Positions 18,721 through 48,579 of a stretch of DNA of 64,000 nt are shown one piece after another. The stretch lies in the NCBI GenBank assembly GCA_009929485.1, contig SAAJ01000014.1, forward strand, positions 1-64,000, in the 5' to 3' direction. The translations under genes were made by a program, and so were the position numbers. Each line of letters starts with the position of its first letter. Within the stretch, counting starts at the first letter, position 1. The notes under the pieces were generated by a model, which worked only from the letters and a program-made list of their open reading frames with translations, made no database searches and was not told where the DNA came from. The stretch comes from Negativicutes bacterium (lineage in GTDB: Bacteria > Bacillota > Negativicutes > Anaeromusales > Anaeromusaceae).

Positions 18721-19361
18721 CTATTCCAGTTTAGCCGGCCGCATCATGCTTTGCGTCAACCGCGCAGCGCGACTGGAATCAAAGAGAGGTAAGATTTTAG
18801 ATACTTGTTCTTCTTCCATTTTTCCCATAATAGCCAAAACTTCTGCGTCATCCAGGCGGTTCAAAATGCCGACAGCTTCATCTGGCTTCATACCGCCATA
18901 CAAGCGAGCCAAACGACCAATGCGTTTATTCTCTTCTTGCTGCTGTTTTTTGAGCATTTTTCTTTTTCCGCTTCTGTCAGCGGCACCGTCTTGGGCGGAG
19001 GCGCCACTGCCGCAGGGGCAGGATCCGCAGGCGGTTGCACAACCGGCAAAGCAGGTGCGGTTGCACTTTCAGGCAGTTCGACCGGTTCAAAGTTGGTTGC
19101 CGGCTGCTCAAAATACCGTCCGATGCCAGGTACATTGGCCAAACCGTATTGTTTCCCCAAATCTTCCAAGTCAATCAGCTTGAAGTATACCCCTACTCCA
19201 AATCCTAAAAGGATAAGCAAAATGACTAAAAGCAGCGCGACCCCAAGCTTCAACAGGAAAATGATGCGCGACTTTTTCTCTACCGGTGCTTCCACAGTTG
19301 CGTTCTTTGCATCCTGAGGCTTATTCTTATTTTGTCTTACATCTGTTTTACCTGCTGCCAT
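18721..19361 (-). pseudogene. ylxF: YlxF/MotE-like flagellar protein, split by a -1 frameshift
   Basis: The first frame (from 19361) encodes a lysine-rich start, one transmembrane helix (about residues 33-58) and a Pro/Ala linker ending PLTEAEKEK. The expected C-terminal MgtE-N-like domain (RLARLYGGMKPDEAVGILNR, MGKMEEEQVSKIL) lies in the -1 frame from 18957 to 18721. The switch point is GAAAAAGAAAAATG. One more A, or a -1 slip on the A-run, restores a continuous protein of about 213 aa. Alternatives are a sequencing error, a real mutation, programmed slippage, or re-initiation at the ATG (18957) exactly at the junction. YlxF in Bacillus and MotE in other bacteria support stator function. It lies between slt and fliK, the normal place. 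Confidence 0.8.
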
Positions 19362-19388: not shown

Positions 19389-19979
19389 TTATATTTCGTT
19401 CTCATTCTCCATGAACTTTAATACTCTTTTCACATATTCCTGCGTTTCGCCATAAGGCGGAATGCCACCGTATGCCTCCACCGCTCCAGGCCCGGCATTA
19501 TATGCCGCAACAGCTTTGGCAGGATCGCCTTGAAAATGCTGCAGCATTTGCCTCAAGTACGCTACGCCGCCTTCAATGTTTTCCTTGGTATCCTGAGGAT
19601 TAACGCCCAAGGCCCTCGCCGTATCCGGCATCAGCTGCATGACTCCTTGTGCGCCAACTTCAGAAACAACTTGAGAGTCAAAATTAGACTCCGCTTTAGC
19701 CACAGCCATCGCTAGTTTCGGATCTACCCCTTGCCTTTTCGCACTGGAACTAACCATTTGGCGTATAGAATCTCCCTGTTGAGGGAAAGCAGTTCCTGCT
19801 GCGCTCGCAAGTGTAGAAGCGGACTTGCCCCGTACTTGCTGCTGCAATTCATCCGCAAAAGAAGCAGGTTGTCCTGACAAAGAAGCGCTTTTGGCTGTAA
19901 GCATGTTTCCCATGCGACCGAATTTTGCTTCAATGGCGGCGATCCGGCCTGTAACTTCTTGAATACTTTGAATCACCAT
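19389..19979 (-). CDS. SLT-family lytic transglycosylase
   Basis: This 196-aa protein has a C-terminal soluble lytic transglycosylase domain: AVAKAESNFDSQVVSEVGAQG (catalytic Glu in AKAES), GVMQLMPDTA and AVAAYNAGPGAV. The N-terminal 80 residues are coiled-coil and low complexity. No clear signal peptide is seen; it may be exported through the flagellar apparatus. It sits between fliJ and the ylxF/motE-like gene, suggesting it opens peptidoglycan for the rod or hook. Confidence 0.9.
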   Translation of the reverse strand: MVIQSIQEVTGRIAAIEAKFGRMGNMLTAKSASLSGQPASFADELQQQVRGKSASTLASAAGTAFPQQGDSIRQMVSSSAKRQGVDPKLAMAVAKAESNFDSQVVSEVGAQGVMQLMPDTARALGVNPQDTKENIEGGVAYLRQMLQHFQGDPAKAVAAYNAGPGAVEAYGGIPPYGETQEYVKRVLKFMENENEI

Positions 19980-19982
19980 TCC

Positions 19983-20438
19983 TTATCGATCTCCTTCTTC
20001 CCGCAAATACAACTGCATACCTATTTCATCTAAGGTCTTTTGTTCTTCCAGTAACGATTCATACAAATATTGCTGATACTGCGTTTCTTTTAGCGATTCC
20101 ACCGCTTTCAACTGTTTAACCGCTTCCTCCAGCTTCGCTAGACAGTCTTGACGCGCCAATTCCCGCGCTTCCTTTTCGGCAATAAGCTCTCTTTCGCGGT
20201 TATACGTGCTTATTTGATACGCATCGTATAAAGGAAGCATGGCCGCAGTCAACTGTCCTTTGCTTTGCTGCGCCGTAAACCAGGCTATCGCCTCGGTTCG
20301 CTCTTGTCAAAGCTTCTGAAGAGAGTCTATCGTCTCTTGCACCCGACGTGAGGCTTCCGCTAAGTCTAATTTAGCTGCATCACATTTTCGGCGGCGCACC
20401 CCCAAAAGCACTTCGAGACGGAAACGAAAGCGTTTCAT
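19983..20438 (-). pseudogene. fliJ: FliJ export chaperone with in-frame TGA at codon 44
   Basis: Translation from the ATG at 20438 (AGGAGCCTGGATC upstream) gives MKRFRFRLEVLLGVRRRK, a FliJ N terminus. A TGA at 20307-20309 (codon 44, context CTT TGA CAA) interrupts it, and the same frame then continues to 19983 with FliJ-like coiled coil. Without the stop the product would be 151 aa, the normal FliJ length (about 145-150). A single C-to-T change from CGA (Arg) explains it. Re-initiation downstream (TTG at 20252) would lack the N-terminal helix. FliJ couples FliI to FlhA. It could be a true nonsense mutation, TGA readthrough or a sequence error. Confidence 0.88.
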
Positions 20439-20459: not shown

Positions 20460-21791
20460 TCAACAACCTTCAACAAGTTGCGCCAGTTGCGCCAGTTGCA
20501 TCACCGCATCAGATAAAGTGGTTTGCTCATAGACATCCTGCTGCAGAAACTTGCGAATAGCGCCTATGCGCTCAATCGCTTGATCAATCTCCGGATTGCT
20601 TCCCATAACATAAGCGCCTATATTAATAAGATCCGCTGCATCGCGATGGGTTGCCATCAAGGAACGTAGGCGCTGCGCCGCCATGCGCTGTTCTTTGGTG
20701 ACAACCTCGGTCATAACCCGGCTTACGCTATTTAGAATATCAATGGCCGGGTAGTGATTTTGTGCTGCAATACTGCGTGAAAGCACGATATGTCCGTCAA
20801 GAATGCTGCGCACGGCATCAGCAATGGGTTCATTCATGTCATCGCCGTCAACCAAAACCGTATAAATTCCGGTAATGGAACCGTTGGCCCCCGTCCCGGA
20901 TCGTTCTAGCAGCTTAGGAAGCATCGCGAAAACAGACGGAGTATAGCCTCTGGTCGCCGGCGGTTCTCCAACAGTAAGGCCAACCTCACGCTGCGCCATG
21001 GCAAAACGCGTCACCGAATCCATCATGAACATGACATCCCGACCTTGATCGCGGAAATATTCCGCAATAGCCGTCGCCGTCAAAGCTCCCTTAATTCGCA
21101 CCAACGCCGGCTGGTCCGAAGTAGCCACTACTACTACCGAACGTTTCAGGCCTTCTTCGCCCAAATCGCGTTCGATGAACTCACGCACCTCGCGGCCGCG
21201 TTCGCCGATTAAGGCAATGACGCTAATATCCGCCTCGGTATTTCTAGCCATCATACCTAGGAGCGTACTCTTGCCAACGCCGCTGCCCGCCATAATGCCA
21301 ACACGCTGTCCCTTGCCTAAAGTAAGCAGCGCATCAATTGCTCGAACCCCTACAGAAAGAGGTTCTTCAATCCGCCTTCGCGTAAGCGGCGGCGGCGGCA
21401 ACGCATTTAACGGATATTCACGGCTGGAAACAAGAGGCCCCTTGCCATCCATCGGACGCCCCATGCCATCAAGAATGCGTCCCAGCAGACCTTGCCCTAC
21501 GGTGACCTTCAAGGTCCCTTGGGCGGAGATCACCTCACACCCCGGTCCAATCCCTTCCATTTCTGCAATCGGCATTAACAGTACTCGGTTCTGGCGAAAC
21601 CCAACTACTTCCGCAGGAATAGCCTGACTGCCTCCGCGACTGCTTACATAACACAAATCGCCTAAATTAACATTAGGTCCTTGCGATTCAATAACCAAAC
21701 CCACAATCTGCGTGACCCGTCCGCTTCGCCGCATGCTTTCGCACTGCCTGATAGCTTGAGAATAAACATCGCCTGAAAATGCGTCTTTCAT
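20460..21791 (-). CDS. fliI: FliI flagellar export ATPase
   Basis: FliI is the F1-beta-like ATPase of the flagellar exporter. The 443-aa product has Walker A GIMAGSGVGKSTLLG, Walker B VMFMMDSVTRFAMAQRE and the family signature PPATRGYTPSVFA. The ATG at 21791 overlaps the stop of the FliG-FliH frame; a GTG one codon earlier is also possible. It is coupled to the upstream fused gene and followed by the interrupted fliJ. Confidence 0.96.
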   Translation of the reverse strand: MKDAFSGDVYSQAIRQCESMRRSGRVTQIVGLVIESQGPNVNLGDLCYVSSRGGSQAIPAEVVGFRQNRVLLMPIAEMEGIGPGCEVISAQGTLKVTVGQGLLGRILDGMGRPMDGKGPLVSSREYPLNALPPPPLTRRRIEEPLSVGVRAIDALLTLGKGQRVGIMAGSGVGKSTLLGMMARNTEADISVIALIGERGREVREFIERDLGEEGLKRSVVVVATSDQPALVRIKGALTATAIAEYFRDQGRDVMFMMDSVTRFAMAQREVGLTVGEPPATRGYTPSVFAMLPKLLERSGTGANGSITGIYTVLVDGDDMNEPIADAVRSILDGHIVLSRSIAAQNHYPAIDILNSVSRVMTEVVTKEQRMAAQRLRSLMATHRDAADLINIGAYVMGSNPEIDQAIERIGAIRKFLQQDVYEQTTLSDAVMQLAQLAQLVEGC

Positions 21792-23395
21792 CACGGCGTC
21801 ACTTCTTTCAACGCCCGTTGCAGCATTTCCATTTGCGTTTCCATTCTTGCGTCCACCGTCCCCGCCGTCGTCTCCACAATACAGCCGCCTGGGGAAACCG
21901 TATGATCCGCAGTAATGCGCAAGCCTTCTTCCCGACCAATCAAGAGCTGCAAATCGCGCCGCGCCATCAAAACGGTTTCATAATCATCGGGATGCACCCG
22001 AATTTGAATGGAATCTTGATCTTTCACTTTACTGATTGCCGCCGTCACAATCGGCAACACAACCAGCGGATTTTCCTCTACCTCGCGGGCCAACACTTTA
22101 CGCACACATTCCAACACAAGCTCCAACACTTGTCGTTCTGCATCAACAAGAAACTCTACCTGCTGCTGTTCCGCTGCGCGAATTAAGCGATTAGCGTTCT
22201 GCACCGCCTGCTCCACAGCCAGCTTCATTTCCTTCTCCGCAGCCTGTCGTCCCTGAGCTAATCCTTCTTCAAAACCTTCGCGATGGCCCAGCTCTTTAGC
22301 CTGTCCATGTAAGGAATCCGCCTCGCCTTTAATGCGAGCCGCTTCTATTTGCGCCGTTCGCACGAGCGCTTCCGCTTGGCGCTGCGCTTCCATGACCTCG
22401 TCTCCTTTGCCGCGAGATACTATGATTTCTCCCGATTCCTCAAGGCGTCGGATAACATTTACAATTTTTTGCTGTGATTCTTCTACATCGCGAATACGTA
22501 CAGGTCCCATATATTCAATTTCCTCACGCAACATTTCAGAAGCCCGTTTCGACATATTCTTGTAGATTTTTTCACCCACTTCGCCTGACGAAGCCTTAAG
22601 AGCCAAGGCCAGGTCCTTCTGGTCAATTTCACGCAAGACCATTTGCAATGACCGATCATCCAGCATAACAATATCTTCAAAGACAAACATCTTACGTTTA
22701 ATCTCTTCTGCCAATTCCGGATTTTGAACTTCTAGATTTTCAATAATCGTACGTTCGGTCGTACGGTCAACGCGGTTCAACATTTCCACAATCGCATCAA
22801 CGCCGCCGGCAGTAGTAAAGTCCTGAGTTGCCAAGGAAGAAAGCTTACGTTCCAAAACGCGTTCCACATCCTTCAACACGTCTGGCGACGTACGGTCCAT
22901 CAACGCAATTCTTTTAGAAACCTCCACCTGCCGATCCGCCGGTAAATTGGAAATAATAGCAGCGGACTGTTCCGGCGTCAGATACGCCATTATCAAGGCA
23001 ATCGTCTGGGGATGTTCGTTTTGAATAAAGTTTAAAAGCTGTGACGGATCCGTCTTTCGCGCAAAATCAAAAGGACGAATTTGCAGACTTGAGGTCAGCC
23101 GATTGATAATAGAAACGGCTTTTTCCGGCCCAAGGGCTTTTTCCAGGACTTCCCTTGCATAATCAAGACCTCCGGCGGAAATATATTCCTTCGCCACCAA
23201 CAGCGAATGAAATTCATCCAACACTTTTTCCTTTTGTTCCTGTGTCACTTTGCGTTGGCTGGCAATTTCCAACGTCAGTTTTTCAATTTCGTCTTCCCTT
23301 AAATGCCGAAAAACCTGGGAAGACACTTCTGGACCCAAAGAAATTAACAGAATGGCCGCTTTTTGCTTCGGCGTTAACTCGTTTTGACCATACAT
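21791..23395 (-). CDS. fliG: FliG-FliH fusion: motor switch plus export ATPase regulator
   Basis: One uninterrupted 534-codon frame. Residues 1-334 are a complete FliG: the N and middle domains (EHPQTIALIMAYL at about 127), and the C-terminal torque helix with MFVFEDIVMLDDRSLQ and EEIEYMGPVRIRDVEESQ. Residues 340-534 are a FliH core: coiled coil (GHREGFEEGLAQGRQA) and the C-terminal FliI-binding domain ending with VSPGGCIVETTAGTVDARME. FliG normally ends near GDEV followed by a stop, and FliH is normally separate; here no stop lies between. The FliH N-terminal extension that contacts the C-ring is missing, so the fusion would tether FliH-FliI directly to FliG. Start ATG at 23395, with GGGAGGGAG upstream. 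An internal start could also yield free FliH. Confidence 0.92.
   Translation of the reverse strand: MYGQNELTPKQKAAILLISLGPEVSSQVFRHLREDEIEKLTLEIASQRKVTQEQKEKVLDEFHSLLVAKEYISAGGLDYAREVLEKALGPEKAVSIINRLTSSLQIRPFDFARKTDPSQLLNFIQNEHPQTIALIMAYLTPEQSAAIISNLPADRQVEVSKRIALMDRTSPDVLKDVERVLERKLSSLATQDFTTAGGVDAIVEMLNRVDRTTERTIIENLEVQNPELAEEIKRKMFVFEDIVMLDDRSLQMVLREIDQKDLALALKASSGEVGEKIYKNMSKRASEMLREEIEYMGPVRIRDVEESQQKIVNVIRRLEESGEIIVSRGKGDEVMEAQRQAEALVRTAQIEAARIKGEADSLHGQAKELGHREGFEEGLAQGRQAAEKEMKLAVEQAVQNANRLIRAAEQQQVEFLVDAERQVLELVLECVRKVLAREVEENPLVVLPIVTAAISKVKDQDSIQIRVHPDDYETVLMARRDLQLLIGREEGLRITADHTVSPGGCIVETTAGTVDARMETQMEMLQRALKEVTP
22391..22408 (-). promoter_or_regulatory. Internal Shine-Dalgarno and ATG at the FliG/FliH junction
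   Basis: Inside the fused frame, AAAGGAG lies eight bases upstream of the ATG for residue 335 (22391-22393). Initiation here would give a free FliH core of 200 aa in addition to the fusion. The Shine-Dalgarno sequence overlaps the codons for the conserved FliG end (GKGDEV), so it may be partly coincidental. Confidence 0.55.
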
Positions 23396-43557: not shown

Positions 43558-44541
43558 TTATCTCCCGCAGGCGCACCAAGGTTCTTCCGCCAGATAGTCA
43601 CCGTCGGAATAGTAATAGGCTCTAGCACGGCAGCCGCCGCAAATATCGTCATAACCGCAGCGCCCGCAAGCCCCTTTTAGCGGCTGATGGCGCAAATCCT
43701 GGAAGATTTCACTTTTAGCCCACATTTCATCAAACGGCGTCTGACGCACATTGCCCACTTTCATCGGCAAGTACGGACACGGATGAACATCGCCGTTAGG
43801 AATAATGACGCAATAGGCCGTACCAGCCAAGCATCCCTTGGTAAAGCGCATCTTCATGCCCCGTTCTTTCGCAATGCGCATGAACTGAGGAGCGCAAGTC
43901 GGCTTTAGCTCAATCTCCACCTGCTGCTGTTTATCCAAAATGCGTCCCAAAAGCGACTCATATTGTTCCGTATGCAAAGATGTATCTTCAATATCTTTGC
44001 CCCGACCCACAGGCACGAGGAAGAAAATATGATGTCCCGCAGCACCAGCGCTTACTGCAAAATCGGTAAGTTCCGTAATTTCCGGTTCATTCCAATTCAT
44101 AGCGGTAGTATGAATTTGGAACGGCAAGCCTGCCGCGCGGCAGGCGGCCATGCCGTCAACCGCGCCCTGCCAGGCGCCGGGCCATTTGCGGAATTCGTCA
44201 TGCCGTTCAGCGTCAACACTATCCAAGCTAATCCCCGCCCGGGCCAGACCAGCCTCTTTGAGCTTCACCGCCACTTCCGGCGTAATTAAAATACCGTTCG
44301 TCCCCAACACCGGGCGCAGGCCCTGCTCTTTGGCATGACGAATAAGCTCATAAATGTCGGCGCGCATCAAAGGTTCGCCGCCGCTGAGAATCAAAATTTT
44401 AAAGCCAGCCTTGGCAATTTGCTCAATAAGCTTTTTCCCTTCCGCCGTATCCAATTCTTCCGCATGCTTAGAGCCTGCGTCCCGGTAGCAATGGACACAA
44501 CGGATATTGCATTCCTGGGTCGTATTCCAAGAAATGATCAT
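43558..44541 (-). CDS. ahbD: AhbD/NirJ2-type radical SAM haem synthase
   Basis: This 327-aa radical SAM protein has CNIRCVHC (CxxxCxxC), LSGGEPL and a C-terminal SPASM-like cysteine cluster (CGRCGYDDICGGC). It matches the NirJ2/AhbD group, which decarboxylates Fe-coproporphyrin III to haem b in the siroheme pathway. It follows ahbC by four bases and precedes the hydrogenase cytochrome b, which would need the haem. The siroheme decarboxylase genes ahbA and ahbB are not in the window. Confidence 0.85.
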   Translation of the reverse strand: MIISWNTTQECNIRCVHCYRDAGSKHAEELDTAEGKKLIEQIAKAGFKILILSGGEPLMRADIYELIRHAKEQGLRPVLGTNGILITPEVAVKLKEAGLARAGISLDSVDAERHDEFRKWPGAWQGAVDGMAACRAAGLPFQIHTTAMNWNEPEITELTDFAVSAGAAGHHIFFLVPVGRGKDIEDTSLHTEQYESLLGRILDKQQQVEIELKPTCAPQFMRIAKERGMKMRFTKGCLAGTAYCVIIPNGDVHPCPYLPMKVGNVRQTPFDEMWAKSEIFQDLRHQPLKGACGRCGYDDICGGCRARAYYYSDGDYLAEEPWCACGR

Positions 44542-44545
44542 GGGA

Positions 44546-45721
44546 TCACTCCTTCCAGTCCGTCAGATAACAGGCCGGATCCTCCGCCCAAATATTGCCG
44601 CCTGTTACGGCTTCCGCCCGAATGCGGCAGCCGCCGCAAAACATTTTATAACGGCACTCGCCGCAGCGGCCTTCCAAGTGCAGGTGCTTCTCGCGCATAG
44701 AGCACAAGAACTTGTCCTGGCTGTCCCGCCAGATTTCGCTGAATTTCTTCTCCCGTACATTGCCCAGAGACTTATGACCCCAGAATTGACAAGCATGCAC
44801 ATTGCCCTGAGGGTCCACATTGGAAGTTTTCTGTCCAGCTGAACAGCCTCCATGCATTTCCAGCAGTTGCAATACTTCTTCTACTCGCTCCGGCTGGTGC
44901 TTTTCTAAGTACTGCAGTAAATAAATACCGTCGGCATGATTATCGGTCGTCAAAATTTCCACTTCAATACCGCGTTTATGGAAATCCAACGTCCGTTCCA
45001 TCAAGAGTTCAATGGTTTGCCGTTTCTGTTCAGGCGTGGTATCGAGTTCCGCCATTTCCTTGCCTCGGCCTGCATACACCAAGTGGTACATGCAAAAGCG
45101 CGGCACTCCCTCGCGTTCCACAATATCCAGAACATCCGGCAGTGTGTGGAAATTCAAGCGATTCACGGTAAAACGAATACCGGTCTTATTGCCCGCAGCC
45201 AGCGAATTGCGAATGCCCTGAATCGTCTCCTGGAAAGCTCCCTTTTTGCCGCGGAAATTATCATGAACTTCTTCATTGCCATCCACGCTGATGCCTACAT
45301 ATTGAAAACCAGATTCATGGATGCGCCGAGCCATGTCCGGCGTGATCAGTGTGCCATTCGTTGAAATAACAGGACGAATGCCTTTGGAGGCGGCATAGGG
45401 TCCCAATTCAAACAAATCCTGGCGCACCAGCGGTTCGCCGCCGGAGAAAAGCAGCACAGGCACCTTCATGGAAGCCAGATCATCAATAAAGGCTTTGGCT
45501 TCCTCGGTTGAAAATTCGCCAGCATATTCTTTGTCTTCTGCATTAATATAGCAATGCTGACAAGATAAATTGCAACGGTTTGTGCTGTTCCAAACAACAA
45601 TCGGCGTAGCGTCCGAAGAAAACTGCAGCATCTGCGGCGGCAGCTGCTCTGTTTTGCGACCGTATTTAACAATATCCGACACCGTTGCCGTACCACATAG
45701 TAATTTTGTACATCCAATCAT
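44546..45721 (-). CDS. ahbC: AhbC/NirJ1-type radical SAM enzyme
   Basis: This 391-aa protein opens MIGCTKLLCGTATVSDI, characteristic of the NirJ1/AhbC group. It carries CNLSCQHC, FSGGEPLVRQD and a C-terminal cluster (CGECRYKMFCGGC). AhbC removes acetate side chains from 12,18-didecarboxysiroheme to give Fe-coproporphyrin III. The ATG at 45721 has AAGGAGG about 12 bases upstream. A terminator separates it from tatA. Confidence 0.86.
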   Translation of the reverse strand: MIGCTKLLCGTATVSDIVKYGRKTEQLPPQMLQFSSDATPIVVWNSTNRCNLSCQHCYINAEDKEYAGEFSTEEAKAFIDDLASMKVPVLLFSGGEPLVRQDLFELGPYAASKGIRPVISTNGTLITPDMARRIHESGFQYVGISVDGNEEVHDNFRGKKGAFQETIQGIRNSLAAGNKTGIRFTVNRLNFHTLPDVLDIVEREGVPRFCMYHLVYAGRGKEMAELDTTPEQKRQTIELLMERTLDFHKRGIEVEILTTDNHADGIYLLQYLEKHQPERVEEVLQLLEMHGGCSAGQKTSNVDPQGNVHACQFWGHKSLGNVREKKFSEIWRDSQDKFLCSMREKHLHLEGRCGECRYKMFCGGCRIRAEAVTGGNIWAEDPACYLTDWKE

Positions 45722-45754
45722 TCTAAAATGAAACCTCCTTGAACTGCTATACGC

Positions 45755-45795
45755 AAAAAAGGCCAACTCTCAAAGAATCTTTGGAGAGTAGGCCT
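45755..45795 (-). terminator. Terminator between tatA and ahbC
   Basis: On the minus strand GGCCTACTCTCCAAAG pairs with CTTTGAGAGTTGGCC, followed by six T residues. It should reduce transcription into ahbC, so the downstream genes either depend on readthrough or have another promoter. I did not find an obvious one in the short gap. Confidence 0.88.
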
Positions 45796-45807
45796 CTACC
45801 TGCCATT

Positions 45808-46005
45808 TTACAGTTTTTCTTTTTCTATTGGCGTTGTTAGGGAAGCAGTGTGACGCACTTCCTCTTTCACCTGATCCGAGGCGGCTTTAAAATCCCGAAC
45901 GCTTTTCCCCAAGGCTCGAGAAATATCCGGCAGCTTAGCAGGTCCAAAAGTAATCAGTACGATTACCAGCACAACGAAAAGCTCCGGCAACCCGATGTTG
46001 AACAT
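45808..46005 (-). CDS. tatA: TatA twin-arginine translocase subunit
   Basis: TatA multimers form the pore for folded, cofactor-containing proteins. The 65-aa product has an N-terminal helix (IGLPELFVVLVIVLITFGP), the FGP hinge, then an amphipathic helix (AKLPDISRALGKSVRDFK). Hydrogenase small subunits are Tat substrates, which fits the neighbours. tatC is not in the window. Confidence 0.95.
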   Translation of the reverse strand: MFNIGLPELFVVLVIVLITFGPAKLPDISRALGKSVRDFKAASDQVKEEVRHTASLTTPIEKEKL

Positions 46006-46031
46006 TGGCCATACCTCCCCTTCCAGCTTCT

Positions 46032-46060
46032 ATTATCGCAAATTCGCTGTATAGAAACAA
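46032..46060 (-). promoter_or_regulatory. tatA promoter
   Basis: On the minus strand TTGTTT (46055-46060) and GATAAT (46032-46037) are 17 bases apart. The start of transcription would be about 20 bases before the tatA ATG, and GGGGAGG lies before it. Confidence 0.65.
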
Positions 46061-46087
46061 CAAATTTTTTCGTTGAGTATACAACAT

Positions 46088-47614
46088 TCAAGTCGAATCC
46101 GGCGGAAAGCGCAGCGTAAAGGAGGTTCCCGCTCCTACAATACTGGCTGCTTCCACCTCAATTCCATGCAAATTCATAATCTCTTTGGCTACCGCCAGCC
46201 CCAGACCCGTGCCGCCGCCATCGCGGTTGTGCGCCTTGTCAACCTTATAAAAGCGTTCCCAAATATAAGGCAGCGCTTCTGCCGGAATACCATGGCCGGT
46301 ATCGTTGATACGCAAAAAAGCCCGCCCATCTGCGCCGCGGTCAGACTCAATGCGAACGGCCCCCTGCTCTGTATGACGCAAGGCATTATCCAGAAGAATC
46401 AACAATAGCTGCGTCAGCCGATCCCCATCGCCGTACACAAAGAGTTCTTCGGAAAAGTTTGTTTCCAACCGCAACCCTTTTTCTTGGGCCAATTTCTCCA
46501 CCAACTGTACCACGCCAGCTACCAGACTTTGCAGCAAAATACGTTCCTTTTCCATTTCCACGACGCCAGCCCGCAAGCGGCTTATATCAAGCAAGTCGGC
46601 AATCAGCCGCTCTAAACGCAACGCTTCGTCACGAATCAAGGCATGATATTGCTGCCGTTGCTGCTCTGCCGCCGTACCGTCTGCCAGCGCCTCATTGTAG
46701 CCACGGATAATGGTTAATGGCGTGCGCAGCTCATGAGATACATTGGCCACAAAATCCCGCCGCAGCCCTTCTTGCTTCTCCATTTCCAACGCCGATTTCT
46801 CTAGGCTGGCCGCCATGGCATTAAAACTTTGCGCCACATCCGCCAATTCCGCCGGCCCTTCTACAGGTACCCGGCGATGATACTCGCCACCAGCAATATG
46901 CTGCGTCGCTTGGCGCAAGTTTTCCAACGGGCGTGCAATCTGCCGACTTAAGCGCTGGCCGACTAGCAGCGACGCCAGCAGACAAATAACCGCGACAACT
47001 CCCAAATGCCACCGCACCCGCTGCAGCCACTCCTCTACGCCCTGCAGAGGTACATGCAAAACAACAGCGCCGTCTATACTTCCTGCTTCAGCTCCAGGCA
47101 CCGGCACCGCAACCACCAGCATTTGCTCTTGATAGAAGTCATGAAAAAAAGTACGCTTGACAATTTGCCCCTGCAGCACCTCCTGCAACGGCCCCGCCAA
47201 CCGAGCTCCTCCTTGCCGCATCATGCCGCGCCCTGGCCCCTGGCCCTGCATCATACCACGACCATGGGGCATAGCATCGCCATGATTAAAATGCATGCCC
47301 CCTGCCGCCGGAGGCATCATATCGCCAGACAAAGCCAGAATTCCGCCCTGACGATCCACCACCCAAATACGGGCGTCCAAAAACGGATCCAATACCTCTA
47401 CCAGCTGCCGCAGCTCCCGGTAGCCGTCTTCTTGCTGACGCGAAGCCGCCACTAAAAGACTCAGCCCTGTCCCCTTCCGCACTAAATCCGCCGTGCGCTG
47501 TTCCAATACGTACTGACGAATCAGCATATACGAACCGGCAAACGCCAAAAGCAAGGCCAAAATAATAATGCCAATATGGCGGGACCAAATTTGATAACGC
47601 AATGGTCTGGCCAC
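46088..47614 (-). CDS. Membrane sensor histidine kinase with Met/His-rich loop
   Basis: This 508-aa kinase has two transmembrane helices (about 13-32 and 205-225) that frame an extracytoplasmic domain. Residues 99-134 of that domain contain eight Met, three His and many Gly, a composition used for soft-metal binding. HAMP, HisKA (phospho-His in FVANVSHELRTPL near 285) and HATPase domains (LLDNALRHTEQG, DTGHGIP, GGTGLGLAV) follow. Start is GTG with AGGGG upstream. The partner regulator precedes it by two bases. A copper or silver signal is a guess from composition. Confidence 0.9.
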   Translation of the reverse strand: MARPLRYQIWSRHIGIIILALLLAFAGSYMLIRQYVLEQRTADLVRKGTGLSLLVAASRQQEDGYRELRQLVEVLDPFLDARIWVVDRQGGILALSGDMMPPAAGGMHFNHGDAMPHGRGMMQGQGPGRGMMRQGGARLAGPLQEVLQGQIVKRTFFHDFYQEQMLVVAVPVPGAEAGSIDGAVVLHVPLQGVEEWLQRVRWHLGVVAVICLLASLLVGQRLSRQIARPLENLRQATQHIAGGEYHRRVPVEGPAELADVAQSFNAMAASLEKSALEMEKQEGLRRDFVANVSHELRTPLTIIRGYNEALADGTAAEQQRQQYHALIRDEALRLERLIADLLDISRLRAGVVEMEKERILLQSLVAGVVQLVEKLAQEKGLRLETNFSEELFVYGDGDRLTQLLLILLDNALRHTEQGAVRIESDRGADGRAFLRINDTGHGIPAEALPYIWERFYKVDKAHNRDGGGTGLGLAVAKEIMNLHGIEVEAASIVGAGTSFTLRFPPDST

Positions 47615-47616
47615 AA

Positions 47617-48309
47617 TTACACCCCTACTTCAAACTTATAGCCCACACCCCATACCGTGCGAATATCCCAGTCTCCGTTGGTTCGGCCTGCGGTTATTTT
47701 TTGGCGCAGACGCTTGATATGAGTATCAACCGTGCGGGTATCTCCGAAATATTCATAGCCCCAAATGGCTTCCAGCAATTGTTCACGGGAAAAAACGCGT
47801 CCAGGATGCTTAGCCAAATACCACAGCAATTCCATCTCTTTAGCGGTCAATTCCACCTCTACGCCAGCCACACGTACGCTGCGCTCTGCTAAATTGACAT
47901 CCAACTCATCATATTGCAAGGACTCTTCTTCGCGCCAAGTATGCTGAGAACGCCGCAGGACCGCTTTGACCCGGGCCACGACTTCCCGCGGATTGAAAGG
48001 TTTCGTTATATAATCATCGGCTCCTAAATCCAATCCATTGATGCGATCTTCATCCTCTCCTTTAGCCGTCAGCAAAATAACAGGCACTTCAGATACCCGC
48101 CGCACACGGCGGCATACCTCTAGTCCATCCTGTCCCGGCATCATAACATCTAGAAGAAGCAGCTGCGGCTTGTGCTCTTCGTAAAAACGCAGAGCCTCTG
48201 TTCCGTCAGCGGCTTCCACTACGTCAAAGCCTTCTTTTTCAAAATAAAGCGCCAAGAGCTGACGTATCTGCTTATCGTCATCTGCAATTAAAATCTTTGT
48301 TTTTTCCAT
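47617..48309 (-). CDS. OmpR-family response regulator
   Basis: This 230-aa two-component regulator has a receiver domain with IADDDKQIRQL, phospho-Asp54 (LLLDVMMPGQDG), Thr in ILLTAKGE and Lys in YITKPF. A winged-helix output domain follows (LTAKEMELLWYLAKHPG, TRTVDTHIKRLRQKI). The start at 48309 begins the conserved receiver; the longer frame upstream is not conserved. It pairs with the sensor kinase downstream. Targets are unknown; no metal exporter is adjacent. Confidence 0.94.
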   Translation of the reverse strand: MEKTKILIADDDKQIRQLLALYFEKEGFDVVEAADGTEALRFYEEHKPQLLLLDVMMPGQDGLEVCRRVRRVSEVPVILLTAKGEDEDRINGLDLGADDYITKPFNPREVVARVKAVLRRSQHTWREEESLQYDELDVNLAERSVRVAGVEVELTAKEMELLWYLAKHPGRVFSREQLLEAIWGYEYFGDTRTVDTHIKRLRQKITAGRTNGDWDIRTVWGVGYKFEVGV

Positions 48310-48403
48310 CTTCGAACCTCCTGGGGGACTGTTTTTAAAAAGAAAAAACGGCACACAGCGTAACATAGAGAACATAAAAGCTCCAACAGAAGCATATGGA
48401 AGG

Positions 48404-48579
48404 GGCAGCCGCCGTTGTTTTTGCGACTTTTTTGAAGCAAGCCGGTCCGCAGGACGCAAAAATAGAAGGCGACGGAGAAAAGTTCCGTATGTCTGAGCGA
48501 CAGCGAGTTCGCGGAACTGCCGTCGCCGCCAATTTGGCGAGGCTTACGGAAATCTTGTCGCAAAAATTTGGCGGCTGCC
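48404..48579. repeat. 176-bp nested inverted repeat
   Basis: Outer arms GGCAGCCGCC (48404-48413) and GGCGGCTGCC (48570-48579) match. Inside them, TTTTTGCGAC (48418-48427) pairs with GTCGCAAAAA (48557-48566), AAGCC with GGCTT (48541-48545), GGCGACGG (48468-48475) with CCGTCGCC (48520-48527), and AAGTTCCG with CGGAACT (48512-48518). The whole segment would fold into one long interrupted stem on either strand. It could be a MITE-like element, a structured RNA or a dispersed genomic repeat. I see no target-site duplication and no second copy in the window. Confidence 0.8.

Follow-up and report, generated by a model that had tools for sequence, protein, structure and literature searches.

A TGG-to-TGA mutation in fliJ as part of a probable recent and local breakdown of the flagellar export-ATPase genes in a Negativicutes genome

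In a stretch of 64,000 nucleotides from a Negativicutes genome (assembly GCA_009929485.1, contig SAAJ01000014.1, positions 1 to 64,000; hereafter the window), the flagellar gene fliJ is interrupted by an in-frame TGA. This stop is probably a genuine, recent and strain-specific TGG-to-TGA mutation. It lies close to other recent lesions, and together they damage the FliH-FliI-FliJ module and a motE-like gene and would leave flagellar export weak. We read it as part of the localised and recent breakdown of one module, and neither as recoding nor as an isolated sequencing error; the finding is an ordinary type of gene loss and involves no new genetic code.

The window contains a flagellar cluster of the Negativicutes type, in which fliG, fliH and fliI precede fliJ (located directly downstream of fliI), a lytic transglycosylase gene, a motE-like gene and fliK. 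Note that the gene names within this cluster were assigned from profile matches and, for some of them, from the reading of translations. The closest named relatives according to FliI are Pelosinus, Anaerospora and Sporomusa (75–77% identity), and a genome of the same species (G002) displays about 98.2–98.8% identity to the window; two congeneric genomes (G003 and G001) were also available for comparison. As claimed by the sequence-only reading, codon 44 of fliJ is a TGA, and the start, the length and the coiled coil of the gene are otherwise intact (Table 1). Only 43 of the 151 residues lie ahead of the stop, so that truncation removes most of the protein. Once read through, the frame matches the Pfam FliJ profile (PF02050) with 29.3 bits for a cut-off of 28.4, and the TIGR02473 FliJ profile with 48.4 bits, slightly below the cut-off of 50.45. 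A single fliJ copy, with no intact second one, was found in the window genome (G000, a draft assembly of 134 contigs). Among the 30 members of the class with a fliJ match, a stop within the gene occurs in the window genome only; an internal TAG in one further member (G037) was rejected, as it is the terminal stop of that gene itself.

Position mapping placed TGG (Trp) at codon 44 in G002, G003 and G001, and the plus-strand base 20307 changed from C to T in the window lineage only, as established against G002 with G003 and G001 as outgroups. Since TGG is found in all three congeneric genomes, the ancestral codon was TGG and the mutation replaced Trp44 by a stop. The comparison with other strains, which the sequence-only reading had proposed, thus returned a sense codon, but TGG in place of the expected CGA, and it uncovered neighbouring lesions that this reading had missed. 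In the wider FliJ family, residue 44 is variable (Glu, Gln, Thr, Leu and others). The fliJ TGA can be described as a nonsense allele of the recent pseudogene type, the product of which has presumably lost its function.

Besides this TGA, a position-by-position comparison of the window with G002, in which G003 and G001 gave the direction of change, identified three window-specific changes, all located inside 3.4 kb and missing from the other three genomes. The first one is a 156-bp deletion, without any long flanking repeat, that joins fliG in frame to a fliH deprived of its first 52 codons. The FliH open frame consequently reaches 535 aa, compared to 241–379 aa elsewhere among the 69 class members with a FliH match; no FliG-FliH fusion exists among the 68 other class members with FliH, and none was found in the literature with the phrases tried. 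The second one is a short tandem duplication in fliI, and the third one is a 1-base deletion in the motE-like gene, by which the frame is lost after about 134 codons. Since the fliG-fliH fusion and the fliI duplication keep the frame, both products may still partly work.

Table 1. Positions of fliJ, its in-frame stop and the neighbouring features in the window.
Feature	Position	Strand	Detail or basis
fliJ frame, 151 codons, broken at codon 44	19983..20438	-	ATG 20438-20436, TAA 19985-19983
TGA in frame, fliJ codon 44 (G002, G003 and G001 have TGG)	20307..20309	-	plus strand reads TCA
In-frame FliG(1-334)-FliH(53-252) fusion, 534 aa	21791..23395	-	comparison with relatives and profiles
Junction of the 156-bp deletion, AT common to both ends	22391..22393	-	alignment to relatives
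fliI, frame open, 3-codon duplication near the end	20460..21794	-	comparison with relatives
9-bp tandem duplication at the fliI end, absent from G002, G003 and G001	20476..20484	-	alignment
motE-like gene; a frameshift takes its MgtE_N-like part out of the frame	18721..19361	-	comparison and profile
Frameshift site, A5 run (A6 in relatives)	18957..18961	-	alignment
Lytic transglycosylase gene, intact, between fliJ and motE	19389..19979	-	profile and comparison with relatives

A sequencing or assembly error, either at fliJ or across the whole block, would be one alternative, and we regard it as unlikely. In its favour, two of the lesions are of a kind typical of errors (a homopolymer for motE, a tandem repeat for fliI), and the assembly is a draft of 134 contigs. 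However, fliJ was hit by a plain substitution, and no long repeat flanks the 156-bp deletion. In addition, gene integrity was checked over about 390 kb (the window contig and three other contigs, compared to G002 and restricted to genes intact in G003), where only 5 of the 277 conserved genes were flagged and 3 were clearly broken (fliH, fliJ and motE), all in one block of five genes. The other two flagged cases correspond to a start difference in a 105-codon frame and to a stop a few codons before the end of a 95-codon frame, and about 270 other conserved genes over this length are free of any comparable lesion. The chance that three broken genes fall within five consecutive genes among the 277 is about 8e-4 (a post hoc calculation), and within the 26-kb flagellar cluster alone, the clustering of lesions in 3.4 kb gives p values of about 0.05 for three lesions and about 0.008 for four. 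Since the background of 277 genes is clean, independent errors within one 3.4-kb stretch are unlikely.

The lesions also look recent. The flagellar genes accumulated 18 nonsynonymous and 58 synonymous changes on the window branch, compared to 26 and 61 on the G002 branch, and this similar ratio suggests that constraint on these genes held for most of the window branch. Only two window-lineage substitutions have accumulated in the disabled segments, both of them synonymous with respect to the old frame; lesions dating back to the split would predict about 11 (Poisson p about 0.0015; this expectation takes its synonymous rate from the flagellar region and assumes that a quarter of the sites are synonymous). 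So few substitutions since the lesions point to a recent origin, although the numbers are small and a low count could also reflect local homogenisation.

In Salmonella, the soluble export ATPase is a FliH12-FliI6-FliJ1 complex, in which Phe-72 and Leu-76 of FliJ bind FlhA, and Trp-7 and Trp-10 of FliH bind FliN and FlhA (PMC9114704). By analogy, a FliJ cut at 43 residues would lack its second half, including the counterpart of the FlhA-binding region, and a FliH without its N-terminus would lack the part by which the Salmonella protein contacts FliN and FlhA. Mutants deleted for fliI, fliHI or fliHIJ are non-flagellated, although the requirement for the complex can be bypassed (PMC4230889). 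The soluble export-ATPase module (FliH-FliI-FliJ) has thus probably been inactivated recently, each mutational step being perhaps only partly disabling; poor flagellar export would then leave flagella few or absent, and swimming would probably be lost or weakened. The presence of several disabling hits in one module, set against few other substitutions, suggests that flagellar export was selected against; the loss probably followed a relaxation or reversal of the selection on motility, in culture for instance. Against this reading, the other flagellar genes of the window are undamaged, contrary to what long-standing non-motility would predict.

Alternatively, the TGA might be tolerated, near-cognate tRNA-Trp inserting Trp at low efficiency and enough FliJ being made; we judge this quite improbable. 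Such an insertion would restore the ancestral residue, the base after UGA is C, and fliJ carries no window-lineage change downstream of the stop. The UGA-C context is leaky in E. coli. For B. subtilis, a reporter read-through of about 6% at TGA is cited in PMC7918605, and basal leakage from UGA to Trp could possibly leave a trace of full-length FliJ. However, TGA is an ordinary terminator in this genome (it ends 26 of the 56 window genes), which also rejects a code with UGA as Trp. The two tRNA-Trp genes both carry a CCA anticodon and do not differ from their G002 counterparts, and release factor 2 holds the ancestral residue at both positions that differ from G002, so that UGA suppression through an altered tRNA-Trp or release factor was likewise rejected. 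Selenocysteine at the TGA found no support, as the single match above the tRNA-Sec cut-off is a tRNA-Ser according to ARAGORN, and programmed read-through was set aside because the stop occurs in the window genome alone and is not kept among relatives. In the features examined (stop usage, the tRNA-Trp genes, tRNA-Sec matches and release factor 2), nothing points to reassignment or to a dedicated suppressor, and the genetic code is the standard one. Moreover, neighbours of the same module carry lesions that read-through cannot mend, and these broken genes of the same pathway favour loss over tolerated read-through. The sequence-only reading had left open a recent change, a read-through or an error: the first is supported by the TGG of the relatives and by the few substitutions since the lesions, the second gains no specific support from a standard code with a normal tRNA-Trp and an ancestral release factor 2, and the third is unlikely given a comparison that is clean outside the flagellar block.

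The FliG-FliH fusion, the fliI duplication and the loss of FliJ could also be co-adapted and form a rewired export module that still works and that FliG tethers to the C-ring; this appears very improbable. This proposal agrees with a fusion that keeps both folds in frame, with the deleted FliH part being the counterpart of the Salmonella FliN-docking segment, and with an in-frame FliI change, three members of one module being altered together; it is opposed by the FliJ and motE changes, which are plain inactivations, and by the uniqueness of such a fusion among the class members with FliH. In addition, FlhB shows no recognisable bypass-type change: its sole window-lineage change (Q19R) lies upstream of the conserved FlhB domain, which starts near residue 33; FlhA carries a D594N change. 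It is just as doubtful that some flagella are still built, with the FliG-FliH chimera anchoring the stator part of the ATPase directly to the C-ring and UGA-to-Trp read-through supplying a little FliJ.

Returning to the recent loss of the module, loss-of-function mutations in flagellar genes occur in strains under weak selection for motility. Our case resembles these in its recent, strain-specific nonsense, frameshift and deletion lesions within an intact surrounding genome; in contrast, the lesions here gather in fliH-fliI-fliJ-motE, one of them being an in-frame FliG-FliH fusion, while the other flagellar genes of the window look untouched. The Salmonella fliH, fliI and fliJ mutants (PMC4230889, PMC9114704) affect the same soluble export-ATPase module, but they were constructed in a motile parent, whereas the lesions described here arose naturally and affect FliH and FliI only in part. 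Similarly, in-frame stops with possible read-through in conserved prokaryotic genes (PMC7918605) share with ours a recent stop in a gene constrained in relatives, and differ in that adjacent genes of the same pathway are broken here too. It should be noticed that, as far as flagellar genes are concerned, this assembly represents its species poorly as a reference. Were the strain motile, its natural in-frame FliG-FliH fusion would offer a direct test of the docking of the export ATPase on the C-ring.

Several observations concern other regions of these genomes. The main flagellin of the congeners was not found in the window genome, where contig C84 breaks off before the expected site (cf. L154 8121-9290); an assembly gap at the C84 start may explain this, and the absence was therefore not counted as evidence of flagellar loss. 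The hook-filament cluster (flgK, flgL, fliD and neighbours; L156, G000:C40 849-11082) shows 71–84% identity to G002, compared to about 98.5% for the rest, likely resulting from allelic replacement of the filament genes. G002 itself has an internal stop near codon 67 of a 1312-aa gene (G000:C16 75720-79658) that is intact in G000 and G003. Short dispersed repeats (about 40–60 bases, 85–97% alike) are present on many G000 contigs and match G002 intergenic DNA around the flagellin region. Within the window, positions 43561-48459 display far more substitutions relative to G002 than elsewhere, mostly synonymous, possibly as a result of recombination.
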